This document shows positions 7,036 through 20,463 of a stretch of 64,000 nucleotides of DNA, piece after piece (positions within the stretch are counted from its first letter, which is position 1; each line of letters begins with the position of its first letter). Location of the stretch: NCBI RefSeq assembly GCF_900105335.1, contig NZ_LT629770.1, forward strand, positions 558,001 to 622,000. Direction: 5' to 3'. The DNA is from Microbacterium paraoxydans. GTDB taxonomy: Bacteria; Actinomycetota; Actinomycetes; Actinomycetales; Microbacteriaceae. Position numbers and translations under genes: made by a program. Under the pieces are notes generated by a model, which was not told the DNA's origin, ran no database searches, and worked only from the letters and a program-made list of their open reading frames with translations.

Positions 7036-8960
7036 GCCCCATCCTCTCCGTCCGCGACCTCAACGTCAGCTTCGCCTCTGAGGCCGGCCGTGTCCACGCC
7101 GTCCGCGGCGTCTCCTTCGACCTCGAGGCCGGGAAGACCCTCGGCATCGTCGGAGAGTCCGGGTCGGGCAAGTCGGTCACCTCCCTGGCGGTGATGGGCC
7201 TGCTCGACGAGAACGCCAAGGTGTCGGGCTCGATCATGTTCGACGGCCAGGAGCTGATCGGCAAGACGGACGCGCAGCTCTCCACGATCCGCGGCAACGG
7301 CCTGTCGATGATCTTCCAGGACCCGCTGACCTCGCTGACCCCCGTGTACACGATCGGCACGCAGCTGATCGAGGCGTTGACCGTGCACCGCAACATGAGC
7401 GGCAAAGAGGCCAACGCCCGGGCCATCGACCTCCTCAAGCTCGTCGGGATCCCGGAGCCGGAGAAGCGCATGAAGGCCTTCCCCCACGAGTTCTCCGGAG
7501 GCATGCGCCAGCGCGTCGTCATCGCCATCGCGATGGCGAACGACCCCAAGCTGATCATCGCCGACGAGCCGACCACTGCTCTGGACGTGACGATTCAGGC
7601 ACAGATCCTGGACCTCATCGAGAAGGCACAGGACGAGACCGGCGCGGCCGTGATGATGATCACGCATGACATGGGTGTCGTGGCCCGCACCGCCGACGAC
7701 GTCATGGTCATGTACGCGGGCAAGCCCGTCGAGCAGGCCCCGGTCAGGGAGCTGTTCCACAAGACCCGGATGCCCTACTCGATCGGACTCCTCGGCGCCA
7801 TCCCGCGCGTGGACAAGGCCGAGAAGGAGCCTCTGACCCCGATCAAGGGCAACCCGCCCCTGCTCATCGACCTGCCCGATGCGTGCCCGTTCGCGGACCG
7901 CTGCCCCATCGTGATCGACGCCTGCCGCGCGAAGGAGCCGGAGCTTCTCCCCGTTCACACGGGAGGCGTGTCAGAACACCGTGCGGCCTGCATCCGGGCG
8001 GACGAGATCGAGGATGGCGGCATGCTCGGCGGGCTACCGGTGTACCCCGTGCGCGAGGTCCCCGAGAGCGACCTCACGCGCCTTCCCCGCGAGGAGCGGC
8101 CGATCACGCTCGAGGTGAAGAACCTCACCAAGACGTTCCCCCTTCTGAAGGGGGCGTTCCTCAAGCGCAAGGTCGGTGAGGTCCACGCGATCAAGGGGAT
8201 CAGCTTCGACGTGCGCGAGGGCGAGACGATGGCCATCGTCGGCGAGTCCGGCTCCGGCAAGACGACGACGCTGCTGCAGATCATGGACATGGTCAAGCAG
8301 ACCGAGGGCGACATCGTGATCGCCGGCACGAGTGTCAACGACATCCGCAGCCACAAGGTCGAGCGCGCTCTGCGTCGCGACATCCAGATCGTGTTCCAGG
8401 ACCCGATGGGTGCTCTGGATCCTCGCCTGACCGTCGCCGACATCATCGCAGAGCCGCTTCTCGCGATCGGAACGCCGAGCGCCGAGGTGCACCGTCGTGT
8501 CGGTGAGCTGATGGATCTCGTCGGCCTCAATCCGGCGCATCGCGATCGCTTCCCCCAGGCGTTCTCGGGTGGTCAGCGACAGCGCATCGGCATCGCCCGC
8601 GCGCTGTCGACGAACCCCAAGATCGTCGTTCTCGACGAGCCGGTCTCCGCGCTCGACGTGTCGATCCAGGCCGGCGTGATCAATCTCCTCGATGAGCTCA
8701 AGGTCAAGCTCGGGCTGTCGTACCTCTTCGTGGCGCACGACCTCTCCGTCGTCCGCCACATCGCCGATCGGGTCGCCGTGATGTACCTCGGTGATTTCGT
8801 CGAGCACGGCGATGTCGACGAGGTGTTCGACAATCCGCAGCACCCGTACACCAAGGCTCTGCTCTCGGCGATCCCGGTCCCCGACCCGGATATCGAGCGC
8901 ACGCGGCAGCGCGTCGTGTTCGATCCCGACACGGTCAGCACGAAGCCGGCGACGGTCTGA
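7032..8960 (+). CDS. Fused double ATPase of peptide ABC transporter (DppD-DppF type)
   Basis: 642 residues holding two complete nucleotide-binding domains. Domain 1 has Walker A GESGSGKS near residue 45, signature FSGGMRQRVVIA and Walker B LIIADEP. Domain 2 has Walker A GESGSGKTTT near 410, signature FSGGQRQRIGIA and Walker B IVVLDEP. Each is followed by the oligopeptide/dipeptide C-terminal extension, the first with CPFADRCP. It powers import through the two upstream permeases. The GGAGG at 7021 and the 4-nt overlap with the preceding gene fix the start. Confidence 0.95.
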   Translation: MSPILSVRDLNVSFASEAGRVHAVRGVSFDLEAGKTLGIVGESGSGKSVTSLAVMGLLDENAKVSGSIMFDGQELIGKTDAQLSTIRGNGLSMIFQDPLTSLTPVYTIGTQLIEALTVHRNMSGKEANARAIDLLKLVGIPEPEKRMKAFPHEFSGGMRQRVVIAIAMANDPKLIIADEPTTALDVTIQAQILDLIEKAQDETGAAVMMITHDMGVVARTADDVMVMYAGKPVEQAPVRELFHKTRMPYSIGLLGAIPRVDKAEKEPLTPIKGNPPLLIDLPDACPFADRCPIVIDACRAKEPELLPVHTGGVSEHRAACIRADEIEDGGMLGGLPVYPVREVPESDLTRLPREERPITLEVKNLTKTFPLLKGAFLKRKVGEVHAIKGISFDVREGETMAIVGESGSGKTTTLLQIMDMVKQTEGDIVIAGTSVNDIRSHKVERALRRDIQIVFQDPMGALDPRLTVADIIAEPLLAIGTPSAEVHRRVGELMDLVGLNPAHRDRFPQAFSGGQRQRIGIARALSTNPKIVVLDEPVSALDVSIQAGVINLLDELKVKLGLSYLFVAHDLSVVRHIADRVAVMYLGDFVEHGDVDEVFDNPQHPYTKALLSAIPVPDPDIERTRQRVVFDPDTVSTKPATV

Positions 8961-10817: not shown

Positions 10818-10863
10818 TCTCGTGTCGAAGCGGGGTCGGTGGTCCATCCACCGGCCCCGCTTC
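10818..10863 (+). terminator. Rho-independent-type hairpin after the ABC operon (copy 1 of a 45-bp duplicate)
   Basis: GAAGCGGGG-T-CGGTGG pairs with CCACCG-G-CCCCGCTTC around a short loop (stem 10827-10863) directly after the binding-protein gene. There is no U-run, as is common in high-GC genomes. Positions 10818-10862 recur at 11155-11199 with one mismatch. Confidence 0.85.
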
Positions 10864-15096: not shown

Positions 15097-16134
15097 CTAG
15101 CCCCCGAACGGTTCACGGGTGGCGATGACCGTCACCATGCGCTCGAGCGCGAAGATCGGGTCGCGCGCCGCACCCTTGACCTCGGCGTCGGCGCGCGCGG
15201 TCGCCTGGATCGCCATTCCCAGGGAGCGCTCGTTCCAGCCCGCCAGGTCTCGCCGCGCGCGGTCCACCTGCCAGTCCTTCATCCCGAGGCGCGGGGCGAG
15301 CTGCCTGCTGGGTTCACGATTGCCGGCGACGCGCGCCATGGTGCGCAGCTTCATCGCGAACGCGGCGACCATCGGCACCGGGTCCGCACCGGAGGACAGG
15401 GCATGGCGGAGCGCCACGAGAGCCTCCCCGTAGCGACCGGCGATGGCGGTGTCGGCGACGACGAACGCCGACACCTCGACCCGGCCGCCGTAGTACTTGG
15501 TGACGACCTCTTCGGTGATGTCACCGTCGACATCGCCGATGAGCTGCTGACATGCAGCGGCGAGCTCGGTGAGGTCGTCGGCGAATGCCGAGACGAGCGC
15601 TCGGAGTGCCGGCGGAGCGATGCGCTTCTTGGCCGCCTTGAACTCCCCCGCCGCGAAGTCGACCCGGTCGCCGTCGCGCTTGATGGCGGGGCAGGCGATC
15701 TCGATCCCACCGCCGGTCCCCGCGCGGAGGGCGTCGAGGAGCTTCTTCCCGCGGACACTGGCTCCGGTATGCCGCAGAACGACGGTCGCGCCCTCCTGCG
15801 GGTTCTCCAGATACCCGATGGCCTCTTGGAGGAACGCGTCGGAGCACTTCTCCACGCCGGACACGCGGACCAGTCGCGGCTCTCCGAACAGCGACGGCGA
15901 GGTCAGGGAGAGCAGCGTGCCGGGAGCGTAGTCGTCGGCACGCACGTCGCTGACCTCGAGCGCCGGATCCTCGGCACGGAGGTAGTCGCGCACCCCGGCG
16001 ATCGCGCGCTCGGCGCAGACTTCTTCCGGCCCGGATACGAGCACCAACGGAGCGGGATGAGGCTCCCGCCACGACACCTGCGGGATCTTCGTGGCCTTCG
16101 CGCCGCCGCGGGAGGGAGGACGGGAAGCTGCCAT
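15097..16134 (-). CDS. holA: DNA polymerase III delta subunit
   Basis: 345 residues. The N-terminal nucleotide-binding-like domain (LVLVSGPEEVCAERAIAGVRDYL, SLFGEPRLVRVSGVEKC) and the C-terminal collar helices (KDWQVDRARRDLAGW) are typical of HolA, the subunit that opens the sliding clamp during loading. In related genomes comEA, comEC and holA form one unit; here a 0.9-kb islet carrying a lipoprotein gene separates holA from comEC. Confidence 0.94.
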   Translation of the reverse strand: MAASRPPSRGGAKATKIPQVSWREPHPAPLVLVSGPEEVCAERAIAGVRDYLRAEDPALEVSDVRADDYAPGTLLSLTSPSLFGEPRLVRVSGVEKCSDAFLQEAIGYLENPQEGATVVLRHTGASVRGKKLLDALRAGTGGGIEIACPAIKRDGDRVDFAAGEFKAAKKRIAPPALRALVSAFADDLTELAAACQQLIGDVDGDITEEVVTKYYGGRVEVSAFVVADTAIAGRYGEALVALRHALSSGADPVPMVAAFAMKLRTMARVAGNREPSRQLAPRLGMKDWQVDRARRDLAGWNERSLGMAIQATARADAEVKGAARDPIFALERMVTVIATREPFGG

Positions 16135-16167
16135 GGGACCAGCCTACCGGCGGCGTCGGACACCCGC

Positions 16168-16199
16168 CTCAGGGCGGCGCGACGTCGGTCCAGACGCGG
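16168..16199. repeat. 32-bp direct repeat, left copy (duplicate of comEC 3' end)
   Basis: Identical over 32 bases to 17105-17136; flanking bases differ on both sides. Read on the minus strand it encodes the final residues RVWTDVAPP and stop of ComEC, although no comEC reading frame is attached here. The 316-bp gap 16135-16450 otherwise holds only the palindrome at 16397-16429. Confidence 0.95.
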
Positions 16200-16396
16200 G
16201 AACTTGCGCCTTCCAATCACCACGCCGCCCACAACGCAGTTGCGGAGCCGATCGGCAGGCGATCGTCGAGCGTCGACACCCCGAATCGTGTTTCACGGAG
16301 GGACCGGAGACGATTCGCCCCAGATGATGACGTGCTGATAACAATCGCCCCGGCTCGCTCATCTGGCGATCTCCAGCCCGTCCGTCCAACGCTAGC

Positions 16397-16429
16397 GTGA
16401 GACTGCTGACGTCAGGTCAGCAATCTCAC
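16397..16429. promoter_or_regulatory. Imperfect palindrome upstream of the islet lipoprotein gene
   Basis: GTGAGACTGCTGAC and GTCAGCAATCTCAC form inverted arms matching at 13 of 14 positions around GTCAG; with a small bulge the pairing extends outward (AGCG/CGCT). It lies 22 bp before the ATG at 16451, so it could be a repressor operator, a leader hairpin, or a recombination structure of the islet. Confidence 0.6.
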
Positions 16430-16450
16430 TTACGCTTGGGGGACGCGCTG

Positions 16451-17017
16451 ATGCGCCTGTCAAAAAACAATTCCGCCGTGCTCGCTCTGGTGACCATGGC
16501 ACTTCTGCTCAGTAGCTGCTCAGCACCTGCGGCAGAGCCGAAGCCGCAGACGACCACTGCAGTGTCGAGCGATGACACCTCGGATGAGTCGGAGACGACA
16601 ACCGATGCATCGTTTGCCAATAACGTCCTTACCCTGCCCGCGTACACGATCACGATCACCGACACGAAGAAGATCGCCGTCGGCCAACCAGGCAACGAGT
16701 ATGGCGAGAAGCCTGTCATCGCTTTCTGGTACGAAGTCACGAACAACTCCGATGACACGATCGATCCGTCCACCGCGTGGATCGGCACCTTCACCGCGAT
16801 CCAAGACAATGACCCGAACGCCGTCAACGAGCTCGGCGTCGGAATGCTCCCGGACGAGCAGTTCCTCGACACCCAGCTGCAGGACATCAAGAAGGGCGGC
16901 ACTGTCGCCAACGCTGTTGCCTACGAGCTGGACGACGAGGCAACCCCGGTAGAGCTTGTCGCCTCTAACGACCTCGGCATGACCGAGATCGGACGCGCAA
17001 CGTTCACGCTGCAGTGA
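16451..17017 (+). CDS. Lipoprotein with DUF5067-like domain
   Basis: 188 residues. A lipoprotein signal (ALVTMALLLSSC) with the lipid-attachment cysteine near residue 22 is followed by a Ser/Thr/Glu-rich linker. The body resembles the immunoglobulin-like DUF5067 fold: YTITITDTKK, then FWYEVTNNSDDTIDP and IKKGGTVANAVAYEL. These are cell-surface proteins of unknown function, common in accessory regions of Gram-positives. The start is the ATG that gives a proper signal peptide; an upstream in-frame ATG at 16397 lies in the palindrome and is rejected. Only gene of the 0.9-kb islet. Codon third positions are less GC-rich than its neighbours. Confidence 0.82.
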   Translation: MRLSKNNSAVLALVTMALLLSSCSAPAAEPKPQTTTAVSSDDTSDESETTTDASFANNVLTLPAYTITITDTKKIAVGQPGNEYGEKPVIAFWYEVTNNSDDTIDPSTAWIGTFTAIQDNDPNAVNELGVGMLPDEQFLDTQLQDIKKGGTVANAVAYELDDEATPVELVASNDLGMTEIGRATFTLQ

Positions 17018-17033
17018 CCCACTGAGCGCGGCA

Positions 17034-17069
17034 TCGAACGGCTCCCGGCGCATGCTGGGAGCCGTTCGA
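17034..17069 (+). terminator. Terminator hairpin after the islet lipoprotein gene
   Basis: TCGAACGGCTCCC pairs perfectly with GGGAGCCGTTCGA around a 10-base loop. It lies 16 bp after the stop codon, within the islet. Confidence 0.92.
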
Positions 17070-17104
17070 AGTTGAGAGCCACGTGCGATGCCTCGTGAAT
17101 GGCG

Positions 17105-17136
17105 CTCAGGGCGGCGCGACGTCGGTCCAGACGCGG
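17105..17136. repeat. 32-bp direct repeat, right copy (native comEC 3' end)
   Basis: Exact copy of 16168-16199. Here it is the last coding part of comEC, including the TGA stop. Confidence 0.95.
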
Positions 17137-19451
17137 AGGGCATGGTCCTCGATGCCGAGCAGGGTGCGGCCGTCGTGGTCGGTGCGGTAGACGTGCGCGC
17201 CGAGAGCCGACAGCATTTCCAGGGTCTCCCGACGCGGGTGCCCGTAGTCGTTTCCCGCGCCGACCGTGATGAGCGCCACGCTCGGCTGCAGAGCCTCGTA
17301 GAGGGCGGGCTCCTGGTCAGCGCTCCCGTGATGGGCGACCTTCACCACGTCGTATCGTGTCAACGGCGTACCGCGGAACAGCGCGCGTTGCGGGACCGCG
17401 GAGAGATCGCCGAGGAACAGGGCACGGGGCACGCCTCCCCCGGCGAACTCGGTGACGACGCTCGCATCGTTGCCCGACGGGAAGGCGACGCTGCCCTTCC
17501 GCGGCCAGAGCACTCGCCATGACGCTTCGCCGAGAGCGCCCCGGTCTCCGGCGCCGGCTGCCCGGAGGGCAGCGCCCGCCCGCGCCAGGTCGTCGAGCAC
17601 GCGCGCATCGGTGCCATCGGCGGGCGGTCCGTGCAGCACGGTGTCCACTCGCCCTTCGAGCACAGCCGCACCCCCGACGTGGTCCGCGTCGAAGTGCGTG
17701 AGCACGAGCAGGTCGATGCGATCGACGCTCAGCGAGCGGAGGCATGCGTCGAGCGCCGCCGGGTCCGGACCTGTGTCGATGAGGGCGATCGCGTCCTGCG
17801 AACGCACCAGGATCGCGTCGCCCTGGCCCACGTCGCACGCGGCGATCGCCCACCCGTGCGGCGTCACGAGCGGAGCGAGCGGACCGTCGACCAACGCGCG
17901 GGAGGTGCCGACGGACGCCACGACGATGAGAACGCCGGCCGCCACGCATCGGACGATGGTGAGGACGCCGCCGGACGTCGACGTGCCCCGCGGACGAGAG
18001 CGCACCGTCACGACGTCCGGGCGCGGTCTTCCGCGGCAGCACACGATGGCGATCGCGACGCTCACCAGCGCGACCAGGGCAGCGCTCCCGAGACCCGCGG
18101 GGAGGAGCACCTGAGCGCCGGGGAGCCCGGAAGTGACATGCGCGACGGTCGCGATCCACGCCGACGGCAGCCAGGCGCACGCGGCGAGCAGATCCGCGAC
18201 GGGTGGGAGAGGCGCAGCGAGACAGGCGAGCAGCCCGATCACCGTGGCGATCGGCGCGGCCGGCTCGGCGAGGAGGTTCGCGACGACCGAGACGAGCGAT
18301 TGCTGTTCCGCGAACAACGCGATCACGGGCGCGCACGCGAGCTGCGCCGCCAGAGGCACGGCGATCGCCAGGGCGAGCGGACCGGGCAGCCAGCGCCCGA
18401 TCCCGTTCGCCAGCGCCGGGGCGAGCAGGATGAGGGCCCCGGAGGCCACGGCGGACAGCGCGAATCCCGGGGCCGACGCCAGCCAGGGATCGGCGACGAG
18501 GAGTACGGCCACACACAGGGCCAGGATTCCGGCGCCTGCGCTCGGCCGCCCGACGAGGATCGACAGCATGCCCGCCGCGGCCATCGTGGCGGCCCGGATG
18601 ACGCTCGGCTCCGGTGTCACGAGTACGACGAAGGCCGCCAGGGCGAGGGCGGCGAGCACGACCCGCAGCGCTCGCGTCCCGCCGCTCAACGCCACGATCC
18701 CGAAGACCGCAGCGACGACGATCGCGCAGTTCGCCCCGGACACGGCGGTGAGGTGGCTGAGGCCGCTCGTACGCATGTCGGCGTCGACGGCGGCAGGCAC
18801 AGCGGTCGTGTCGCCCACCGCCAACCCCGGAAGGAGCCCGGCGCCGGGTTCCGGGAGCCGCGTCGCGCGCTCCACGAACGACCGGCGGAGGTCTGCAGCG
18901 AATCCGAAGACGCCCGGTGCGGACCGTTCCACCGTTCCCGCGGCGACGAAGACGACGAGGGCCGCCCGCTCCCCCGCATCCGTTTCCGCACTCTCTCCGG
19001 TCACCCGCACCTGCGCACCGAGGACGAACCCCTCCCCTTCCTCGATGCCGATGCGCACCGGACCGGCCGCCGGCGCCACGGCCCCGGGCGCACCGATGCC
19101 GCTCAGCTGCACGTCCATCCACAGACGCCCATCGCGTCCCACGGACGCCGAGGACGAGACTTCACCGACCGCTTCGACGGCTCTGCCTCCCCACGCGTGC
19201 ACGGCGTCACGGCCCGCGGACTGTGCGAACACGGTGAACGCCACGGCCGCCGCCGTCGCGAGAACCACGATGACCAGTCCCCCGATCGTCGCGACTGCGC
19301 GGCGCCGGATCGCCAGAGCGGCGCCGATGATCCCCGCGGCCGCCAGGCATCCACCCGCCACCCACGCCGCCGCTCCCGGCACGAACACGCAGACCAGGGC
19401 CACACCCCAGGCACCGACCGCCACCGGCAGCAGGCGCAGATCGCGCGTCAC
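17106..19451 (-). CDS. comEC: ComEC/Rec2 family DNA uptake channel protein
   Basis: 781 residues. It has an N-terminal membrane part with a DUF4131-like region, the polytopic competence domain (LSHLTAVSGANCAIV, the family hallmark), and a C-terminal metallo-beta-lactamase domain with LTHFDADHVGG and KVAHHGSAD. ComEC translocates single-stranded DNA across the membrane in competent bacteria; the nuclease-like domain may process the other strand. comEA lies upstream but is separated by an opposite-strand DUF2510 gene. The 3' end doubles as one arm of the islet repeat, yet the stop codon is intact. Confidence 0.95.
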   Translation of the reverse strand: MTRDLRLLPVAVGAWGVALVCVFVPGAAAWVAGGCLAAAGIIGAALAIRRRAVATIGGLVIVVLATAAAVAFTVFAQSAGRDAVHAWGGRAVEAVGEVSSSASVGRDGRLWMDVQLSGIGAPGAVAPAAGPVRIGIEEGEGFVLGAQVRVTGESAETDAGERAALVVFVAAGTVERSAPGVFGFAADLRRSFVERATRLPEPGAGLLPGLAVGDTTAVPAAVDADMRTSGLSHLTAVSGANCAIVVAAVFGIVALSGGTRALRVVLAALALAAFVVLVTPEPSVIRAATMAAAGMLSILVGRPSAGAGILALCVAVLLVADPWLASAPGFALSAVASGALILLAPALANGIGRWLPGPLALAIAVPLAAQLACAPVIALFAEQQSLVSVVANLLAEPAAPIATVIGLLACLAAPLPPVADLLAACAWLPSAWIATVAHVTSGLPGAQVLLPAGLGSAALVALVSVAIAIVCCRGRPRPDVVTVRSRPRGTSTSGGVLTIVRCVAAGVLIVVASVGTSRALVDGPLAPLVTPHGWAIAACDVGQGDAILVRSQDAIALIDTGPDPAALDACLRSLSVDRIDLLVLTHFDADHVGGAAVLEGRVDTVLHGPPADGTDARVLDDLARAGAALRAAGAGDRGALGEASWRVLWPRKGSVAFPSGNDASVVTEFAGGGVPRALFLGDLSAVPQRALFRGTPLTRYDVVKVAHHGSADQEPALYEALQPSVALITVGAGNDYGHPRRETLEMLSALGAHVYRTDHDGRTLLGIEDHALRVWTDVAPP

Positions 19452-19713
19452 GCCGATCCCTCCTCGGACCCCAGGGACGAACGCTGCCTCTCATGCATCG
19501 GATCACCCTAGAGTCGCGCCGGTGCCCGCTCCGCCCGCCGCGACCACCGCCGCACGAGCAGAGGACAACGACCCTGGAGGTCAGGGTGTGGAGGAGCACT
19601 TCTCTGATGGAGGAGACCGCCGGCGTCGGACGCGGTGACGACCTCGTCGGAAGCGATTGAGTAGCCTGGGTACTCGCGCGCGGCGGACGCTGCCGCGACG
19701 AGGAGGAGAGCGC

Positions 19714-20463
19714 ATGAGTGTCCCGGCTGGGTGGTACGACGATGGTTCCGGGCGCCAGCGGTGGTGGGACGGAGCACGGTGGACCGACGCCTACGCTCCC
19801 CCTTCGGCTCCGACGAATCCCTCGCCGCCTCATCCCGAGGCGCCGACATACGGGTCGGCCGCCCCTGCGCAACAGGTCCCTGACGCTGCTTCTCGGCCGA
19901 CGCCGGTCCTCGGGTTCATCGGGCTGGGCCTGGCCGTCCTCGGCGCCGTTCTCGCCTTCATCCCGGTGTTGTTCGTGGTCGGCGCGGTGATCCTGTTCGC
20001 CGGGTTCGTCGTGTCGCTGATCGGGTTGTTCACGAAGAACGCCGCGAAGTGGCCGTCGATCGTCGGCATGGTCGTGTCGGTCGTCGGCGCCGTGATCGGG
20101 GTCATCGTGCTCATCGTGTCGCTCGTGCTGGCCTCGTCGGCGCTGAACGACTCGTTGCCCGCCGAAAGCGCGCCCCCAGCCAGCGCCCAGCCATCGGACG
20201 CGCCGAGCAGCGCCAGTGAGAGCCGTCCGACACCTGAGGAGATCGGCGCGTCCGCGGAGGAGATCAACCGGTCGAACGGTCTGACCACCTATGACGACAT
20301 GCCGGACTTCTACCCCTGCGTCGGGCAGTACGTCTACGACTCCGAGTTGTCCGATGAGAGCGTCCAGCTCCTGGTCGACGGACGCGATCCGCTCGAGTCC
20401 GAGCGGGAGCTGGCGACCCAGGTGATCACGGATGCCACGCTGACCTGCGATCCCCAGGGGTAA
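19714..20463 (+). CDS. DUF2510 membrane protein with extracytoplasmic tail
   Basis: 249 residues. An N-terminal DUF2510 motif (PAGWYDDGSGRQRWWDGARWTD) is followed by a Pro-rich linker, two or three hydrophobic segments between residues ~65 and 150 (GFIGLGLAVLGAVLAFIP, IVGMVVSVVGAVIGVIVLIV), a low-complexity Ser/Pro/Glu spacer and a short C-terminal domain (DMPDFYPCVGQYVYD). DUF2510 proteins are common actinobacterial membrane proteins of unknown role. It has a good GGAGGAGAG site. It is inserted on the opposite strand between comEC and comEA and ends 8 bp from the comEA stop. Confidence 0.85.
   Translation: MSVPAGWYDDGSGRQRWWDGARWTDAYAPPSAPTNPSPPHPEAPTYGSAAPAQQVPDAASRPTPVLGFIGLGLAVLGAVLAFIPVLFVVGAVILFAGFVVSLIGLFTKNAAKWPSIVGMVVSVVGAVIGVIVLIVSLVLASSALNDSLPAESAPPASAQPSDAPSSASESRPTPEEIGASAEEINRSNGLTTYDDMPDFYPCVGQYVYDSELSDESVQLLVDGRDPLESERELATQVITDATLTCDPQG

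Follow-up and report, generated by a model that had tools for sequence, protein, structure and literature searches.

A 905-bp segment carrying a single recognized gene, for a DUF5067 lipoprotein, lies exactly at the 3' end of comEC in Microbacterium paraoxydans and is flanked by two identical copies of the end of that gene. We analyzed this islet within a 64,000-nucleotide stretch of contig NZ_LT629770.1 (positions 558,001 to 622,000), referred to here as the window; coordinates are those of the window unless a locus is named. We lean toward explaining the islet as a mobile element in reduced form that entered the comEC 3' end by site-specific integration, probably through a tyrosine recombinase. 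The islet is a very small new example of a known element type. Together with the clean empty sites in related genomes, it documents the small size to which an element integrated at a gene end can shrink with one working-looking cargo gene still in place.

A repeat search of the window identified an exact 32-nt direct repeat at positions 16168 to 16199 and 17105 to 17136, with a start-to-start spacing of 937 and 905 bp of DNA (16200 to 17104) between the copies. The right copy comprises the last 31 nt of comEC, stop codon included, plus 1 base beyond the stop, and the left copy lies 33 bp upstream of holA (DNA polymerase III delta; 15097 to 16134, minus strand; 98 to 100% identity in the six nearest genomes). 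Base composition alone would predict 6e-9 matches of 32 nt per 64 kb. The 32-mer occurs at just two sites in the whole genome, a single contig of 3.55 Mb, when up to 3 mismatches are allowed. comEC itself (17106 to 19451, minus strand) is full length at 781 aa; its Competence and Lactamase_B domains exceed the cut-off, and DUF4131 falls below it. A reading of the sequence alone (the sequence-only reading) had described a repeat of the comEC end around a lipoprotein segment, with comEC left intact, and both descriptions are borne out.

The insert is absent from each of the five genomes whose comEC resembles that of the window most closely (protein identity 95, 93, 85, 83, and 74%), in which the order is comEC, one repeat copy, ~33 bp, and holA. 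We constructed an empty-site model by removing the insert and one repeat copy from a 400-bp window junction and aligned it to these five relatives. The alignment was gapless in four (94, 93, 91, and 89% identity) and contained two one-base gaps in the fifth (85% identity). In genome G290, which is as close by holA and has a broken comEC, the comEC end is 37 bp from holA, and among the matches listed the comEC-holA distance in relatives appears by eye to be mostly ~30 to 130 bp. The separation in the window is 937 bp greater, corresponding to the 905-bp insert and the second 32-bp copy. The empty site in relatives indicates that the event was an insertion with a 32-bp duplication rather than a loss in the other genomes, in agreement with the earlier proposal that a precise insertion at the comEC end had displaced holA. 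The insertion leaves in place the 33 bp that carry a promoter-like element of holA, a -10-like TAGGCT (16141 to 16146, minus strand) located 6 nt before the holA start. Of 59 relative loci (57 genomes), 56 have the corresponding motif, GGTAG[GT]C[TC], before the holA start, at a distance of 6 or 7 nt in 53; the motif has the appearance of a leaderless promoter. Because comEC is whole and the 33 bp before holA are kept, both neighboring genes should still work.

The insert has a foreign base composition: its GC content is 61.0%, compared to 73.5% for comEC, and ranks among the lowest 1.3% when 1262 windows are compared. It begins with a 126-bp piece (16200 to 16325) for which a DNA search of the genus returned just short weak matches and no clear relative. 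This is followed by a 24-nt element (16326 to 16349, plus strand), a candidate operator or promoter common to genomes G157, G305, and G158, at which the similarity of these three genomes to the insert starts on the upstream side. An inverted repeat (16384 to 16440, plus strand; fold z -5.14) is located directly upstream of the lipoprotein gene (16451 to 17017, plus strand), which encodes 188 aa with a lipobox, LLSSC, recognized by eye. The protein matches DUF5067 (PF16729) with E 9.7e-28 and 97.1 bits against a Pfam gathering cut-off of 27, and phrog_5610 with E 4.1e-29. Downstream are a terminator-like hairpin (17034 to 17069; fold z -6.30 for the stretch 17030 to 17104) and a final 35-bp piece (17070 to 17104). 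The lipoprotein gene and palindrome of the sequence-only reading are thus confirmed, and its terminator is confirmed in part: the hairpin folds, but a terminator scan found none with a T run.

DUF5067 is the sole recognized gene of the insert, as the remaining ORFs either overlap it or encode fewer than 90 aa at the left end of the insert. The ORF list and profile searches revealed no integration, transfer, or recombinase gene in the 905 bp, consistent with the earlier remark that no recombinase lay inside. A prophage remnant was considered and rejected because the cargo lipoprotein is the only gene found; no phage structural, lysis, or integrase gene was recognized in the insert. A transposon or MITE was likewise rejected given the lack of terminal inverted repeats at the insert ends, where a repeat search found no inverted pair of at least 12 nt joining them. 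The target duplications made by transposases are usually shorter than 32 bp.

These features resemble those of reduced integrative elements. Passages of PMC5704250 describe IMEs with tyrosine recombinases as flanked by 8- to 60-bp repeats and often situated at the 3' ends of housekeeping genes, with the gene left whole; a 32-bp repeat that is a gene 3' end with its stop codon falls within this range. The same passages describe a CIME as an element that lacks integration and transfer genes but keeps both att sites. In the mechanism we favor, a crossover between the att site of the element and the last 32 bp of comEC would have yielded two copies, one completing comEC and the other remaining beside holA. 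Integration and transfer genes may have been lost later or may never have been part of the unit. What was left over would be a single cargo gene, equipped with upstream signals and a hairpin of its own, between attL and attR. This is the anatomy of a CIME, and the DUF5067 cargo would have been retained as helpful to the host or the element. Like a CIME, the islet keeps putative attL and attR sites, is devoid of integration and transfer genes, and lies at the 3' end of an unbroken gene. It differs in consisting of one gene in 0.9 kb, and our searches returned no ICE or IME related to it that uses this site. In addition to the repeat, the empty site in five of five relatives, the foreign GC content, the patchy distribution of the lipoprotein (13 of 366 genus genomes), and the integrase and repressor genes found next to its homologues elsewhere argue for a reduced element.

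Several observations fit this explanation less well and bring in an alternative in which no recombinase took part. The two repeat copies are identical, though the site in the five relatives differs from the 32-mer by 1, 2, 0, 3, and 4 bases, and a foreign att site would have no need to match so exactly. Base 16167, immediately beside the left copy, is C in the window and A in all five relatives. The 32-mer has an inverted-repeat core no better than that of shuffled sequences (137 of 200 shuffles were as good). A break at the comEC end could have been repaired with captured foreign DNA, duplicating 32 bp of target in situ, either by template switching or by end joining in which long overhangs were filled in. 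Such an event would account for copies that are identical while the sequence differs in four of five sister species, and it would need neither a palindromic core nor a second use of the site, neither of which was seen. Because the core is missing, the copies are identical at a variable site, and no partner element was found, we regard in situ duplication as a serious rival, though a clearly less probable one. The duplicated stretch extends just 1 base beyond the stop codon of comEC, and neither this gene nor the promoter-like element of holA is damaged, an outcome that a random break would seldom give, and the insert is a complete gene unit rather than a random fragment.

The sequence-only reading had suggested that the comEC end might be an integration hotspot, with relatives showing either an empty single-copy junction or different cassettes between the same repeats. 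We therefore analyzed comEC-holA loci in which the gap was long, the orientation was changed, or comEC was damaged, with candidate gaps picked by eye among the matches listed rather than across all 366 genomes and with G165, of changed orientation, left out. A flanking repeat of the comEC end was found in none of 7 unusual loci (repeats of ~22 bp or more) and in none of 17 further loci (exact repeats of at least 14 bp). Gaps between comEC and holA reach ~19 kb in relatives (L032), and these inserts lack the comEC-end repeat. Thus, while empty single-copy sites were found in five of five relatives, no other cassette was found between the same repeats in 24 unusual loci, and a hotspot at the comEC end is unsupported.

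The result in these 24 loci also counts against a reduced element, as does the outcome of our searches for its source. No element with an integrase and the 32-bp site was found among the searched comEC-holA loci of relatives. Searches of viruses and plasmids detected the insert neither on a free circle nor in any phage or plasmid; a 26-mer of the putative att site was absent from viral_contigs, and searches of the same collection with holA and with the C-terminal half of comEC gave no relative. In the literature on comEC with a serine recombinase or attB, and on Microbacterium comEC with prophages, we found no report of this comEC site.

The sequence-only reading had further raised the idea of a minimal cassette moved in trans. 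In this scenario the attL-lipoprotein-attR unit is still alive and is mobilized by an integrase encoded at another genomic locus or brought in by a visiting element. The unit is complete, its repeats are identical, and the genome contains 7 tyrosine-integrase matches, each at a place of its own; two of these, close to opposite ends of the contig, have the same score. However, no second copy of the insert was found in its own genome, no third 32-mer is present there, and no free form was detected. We therefore consider a living cassette unlikely, and decay of an element or duplication in situ would account for the structure equally well. A possible parallel comes from a Ruthenibacterium MAG (L096), in which repeat copies 1431 bp apart surround DUF5067 and two small genes in a second islet devoid of a recombinase. 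These copies are 96 bp long, 98% identical, and consist of the 3' end of a small ORF and a terminator. In the same MAG (L096, L203), 83 bp of the left-type copy run straight into the right flank at the end of a contig, with a few base differences; this junction possibly represents an empty site in a strain mixture. This case is a single MAG that a mixed assembly could explain.

The Ruthenibacterium islet emerged from a survey of repeats (at least 26 bp, at least 93% identity, spacing 500 to 2500) flanking DUF5067 genes. Such repeats occurred at 3 of 53 non-redundant DUF5067 loci compared to 2 of 426 control genes (Fisher p 0.011), with both control matches in one repeat array and the p value calculated before two of the three DUF5067 loci were discounted. 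These two loci have ordinary explanations, so we claim no enrichment and no recurrence of DUF5067 islets: the repeat at L120 is a phage terminator hairpin, and that at L191 is a hairpin dispersed at 14 places in its genome, and both were rejected as islet boundaries. The latter, at L191:3440-3497 and 13 other places in the Microbacteriaceae genome G636, is a near-perfect REP-like hairpin with a 23-bp stem, GAGCAGAA...TTCTGCTC.

The nature of the cargo offers some insight into why the islet may have been kept. DUF5067 is present in 13 of 366 genus genomes, two of them by N-terminal matches of E ~1e-3 only. At the family level it is found in 12 of 369 genomes, several by weak matches; both counts include the genome studied here. 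Residues 55 to 188 of the window protein are ~57% identical to proteins of a Lysinibacillus phage and an Exiguobacterium plasmid and 53% identical to that of a Fructilactobacillus plasmid. At the DNA level, identity within the gene is 70 to 74% in plasmids of four genera. No NCBIfam model scored above cut-off, PADLOC gave no match, and a PDB sequence search returned two weak uncharacterized matches, 3qfg and 2llg. Our literature search turned up little on DUF5067 as a lipoprotein; in Staphylococcus aureus, a passage of PMC5020093 describes it as a lipoprotein of unknown function.

We surveyed the genes called within 1 kb of DUF5067 in the 53 non-redundant loci, which exclude the window, and scanned a hand-chosen 104 of the 128 against Pfam, leaving out 24. 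These 104 neighbors include 7 Phage_integrase, 7 HTH_3, 5 ImmA/IrrE peptidase, 1 Ltp, and 1 Abi_2 proteins. They also include 5 Gly_transporter and 4 PTS_EIIA_2 proteins, indicative of ordinary chromosomal places, which counts against the reduced-element explanation. The order in the Fructilactobacillus plasmid is repressor, XRE regulator, Ltp (PF07553, E 9.4e-37), DUF5067, and tyrosine integrase; in Listeria cornellensis it is, by eye, regulator, ImmA-like protein, DUF5067, and integrase. Compared to these relatives with an integrase nearby, the DUF5067 copy of the window stands alone. The association with repressor, ImmA/IrrE, or integrase genes in several loci makes a role in superinfection exclusion likely. 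Judging from these neighborhoods, the lipoprotein is most likely exposed at the cell surface and serves in superinfection exclusion or defense, where it would block phage DNA entry, and the cargo may have been retained since it is phage protective. Ltp, which passages of PMC3952083 describe for phage TP-J34, is likewise a phage-borne surface lipoprotein, and it adjoins DUF5067 before the integrase in the Fructilactobacillus plasmid. The window protein differs in belonging to DUF5067 rather than Ltp: PF07553 is absent, PF16729 alone passes cut-off, and its exclusion role is putative. A probable superinfection-exclusion lipoprotein of this kind is open to direct testing.

The closest homologues, in Microbacterium genomes G157, G305, and G158, are 84% identical to the window lipoprotein and are followed by a GIY-YIG gene. 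PADLOC identifies this gene in G158 as the anti-phage gene UzuA (E 1.6e-85), and the copies in G157 and G305 were assigned by eye; both this pairing and the Ltp-integrase neighborhood speak for arrival on a mobile element. G157 and G158 share a 1.6-kb lipoprotein-uzuA block (L054:1372-3003 and L055:558-2187; first letters GATGACGNGCTGATAACGATCGC) at ~90% identity, with sharp ends and otherwise unrelated surroundings. The window retains only the lipoprotein half of this block, and similarity stops at the hairpin.

All three of these homologues are also linked to comEC, a gene that is repeatedly struck by islands in this one genus, some of them carrying defense genes. In G157 and G305 the lipoprotein lies within DNA that splits comEC, the split spanning ~95 kb in G157 and separating the halves onto different contigs in G305. 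In G158 it is part of a 7.3-kb stretch that separates comEA from comEC and is bordered on both sides by 261-bp copies of the comEC 5' end, 95% identical to each other (L069:763-1023, 8349-8609), as if an element had brought a replacement comEC 5' end. Together with the window, these lipoproteins therefore occupy three different insertion points in or at comEC. Among genomes with both positions on record, the more distant Microbacterium lipoproteins (G338, G390, G394, G161, G025) are on another contig than comEC or more than 100 kb away. The comEC linkage raises the alternative that the cargo arrived by homologous exchange through the comEC flanks, from islands like those found within or ahead of comEC in related species. 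We think this very unlikely: the common DNA extends only from ~16326 to the hairpin, with no island DNA beyond, and such exchange alone yields no 32-bp repeat.

Islands split comEC near codon 240 in at least 6 of 366 genus genomes (G157, G305, G202, G363, G231, and, by the C half only, G204). Their cargo includes type I RM, C5 methyltransferase, and uzuA genes. The islands of G202 and G363 have at the junction a serine-recombinase zinc-ribbon protein, which passes the Pfam cut-off in one island and falls short of it in the other, and carry restriction-modification-type genes, with a uzuA homologue also present in G202. The splits have a short TCCGG-like core, with GGTGGG or CCCACC motifs adjacent in several (by eye), and it seems likely that these islands represent a single integration system that targets the DNA-uptake channel. 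As they use a short core and not a 32-bp repeat, their mechanism is different from that of the window insert. Passages of PMC11472951 and PMC12637031 deal with mobile elements that disrupt competence genes; in pneumococcus, transposons in comEC and prophages in comYC are already on record. The window shares with such competence-gene-breaking elements the involvement of comEC, which islands interrupt in its relatives, two with defense genes, but differs in that its own comEC is left whole. A broader idea is that DUF5067 genes generally form recombinase-less gene-end cassettes of 1 to 3 genes that are moved in trans and that, in Microbacterium, home on the comEC locus, so that an entry-blocking lipoprotein, uzuA, and comEC would make up a recurrent battleground over DNA entry; we offer it as speculation of low probability.

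The codon-240 split point falls at LTAVSG/ANCAIV in L145 (G202), L146 (G363), L147/L148 (G231), L077/L149 (G157), L067 (G305, N side), and L178 (G204, C side). In the sister species G290 (holA identity 99%), comEC is interrupted near codon 536 (L162, ~17965), and the 18 kb before the break contains recombinase-like and other foreign-looking genes (by eye). Within the window, a plus-strand gene at 19657 to 20463, between comEC and comEA, is another variable insert of the com locus, as this segment aligns in L081 and L082 and not in L083 and L084. The window also contains an exact 26-nt direct repeat at 10818 and 11155, 337 bp apart.
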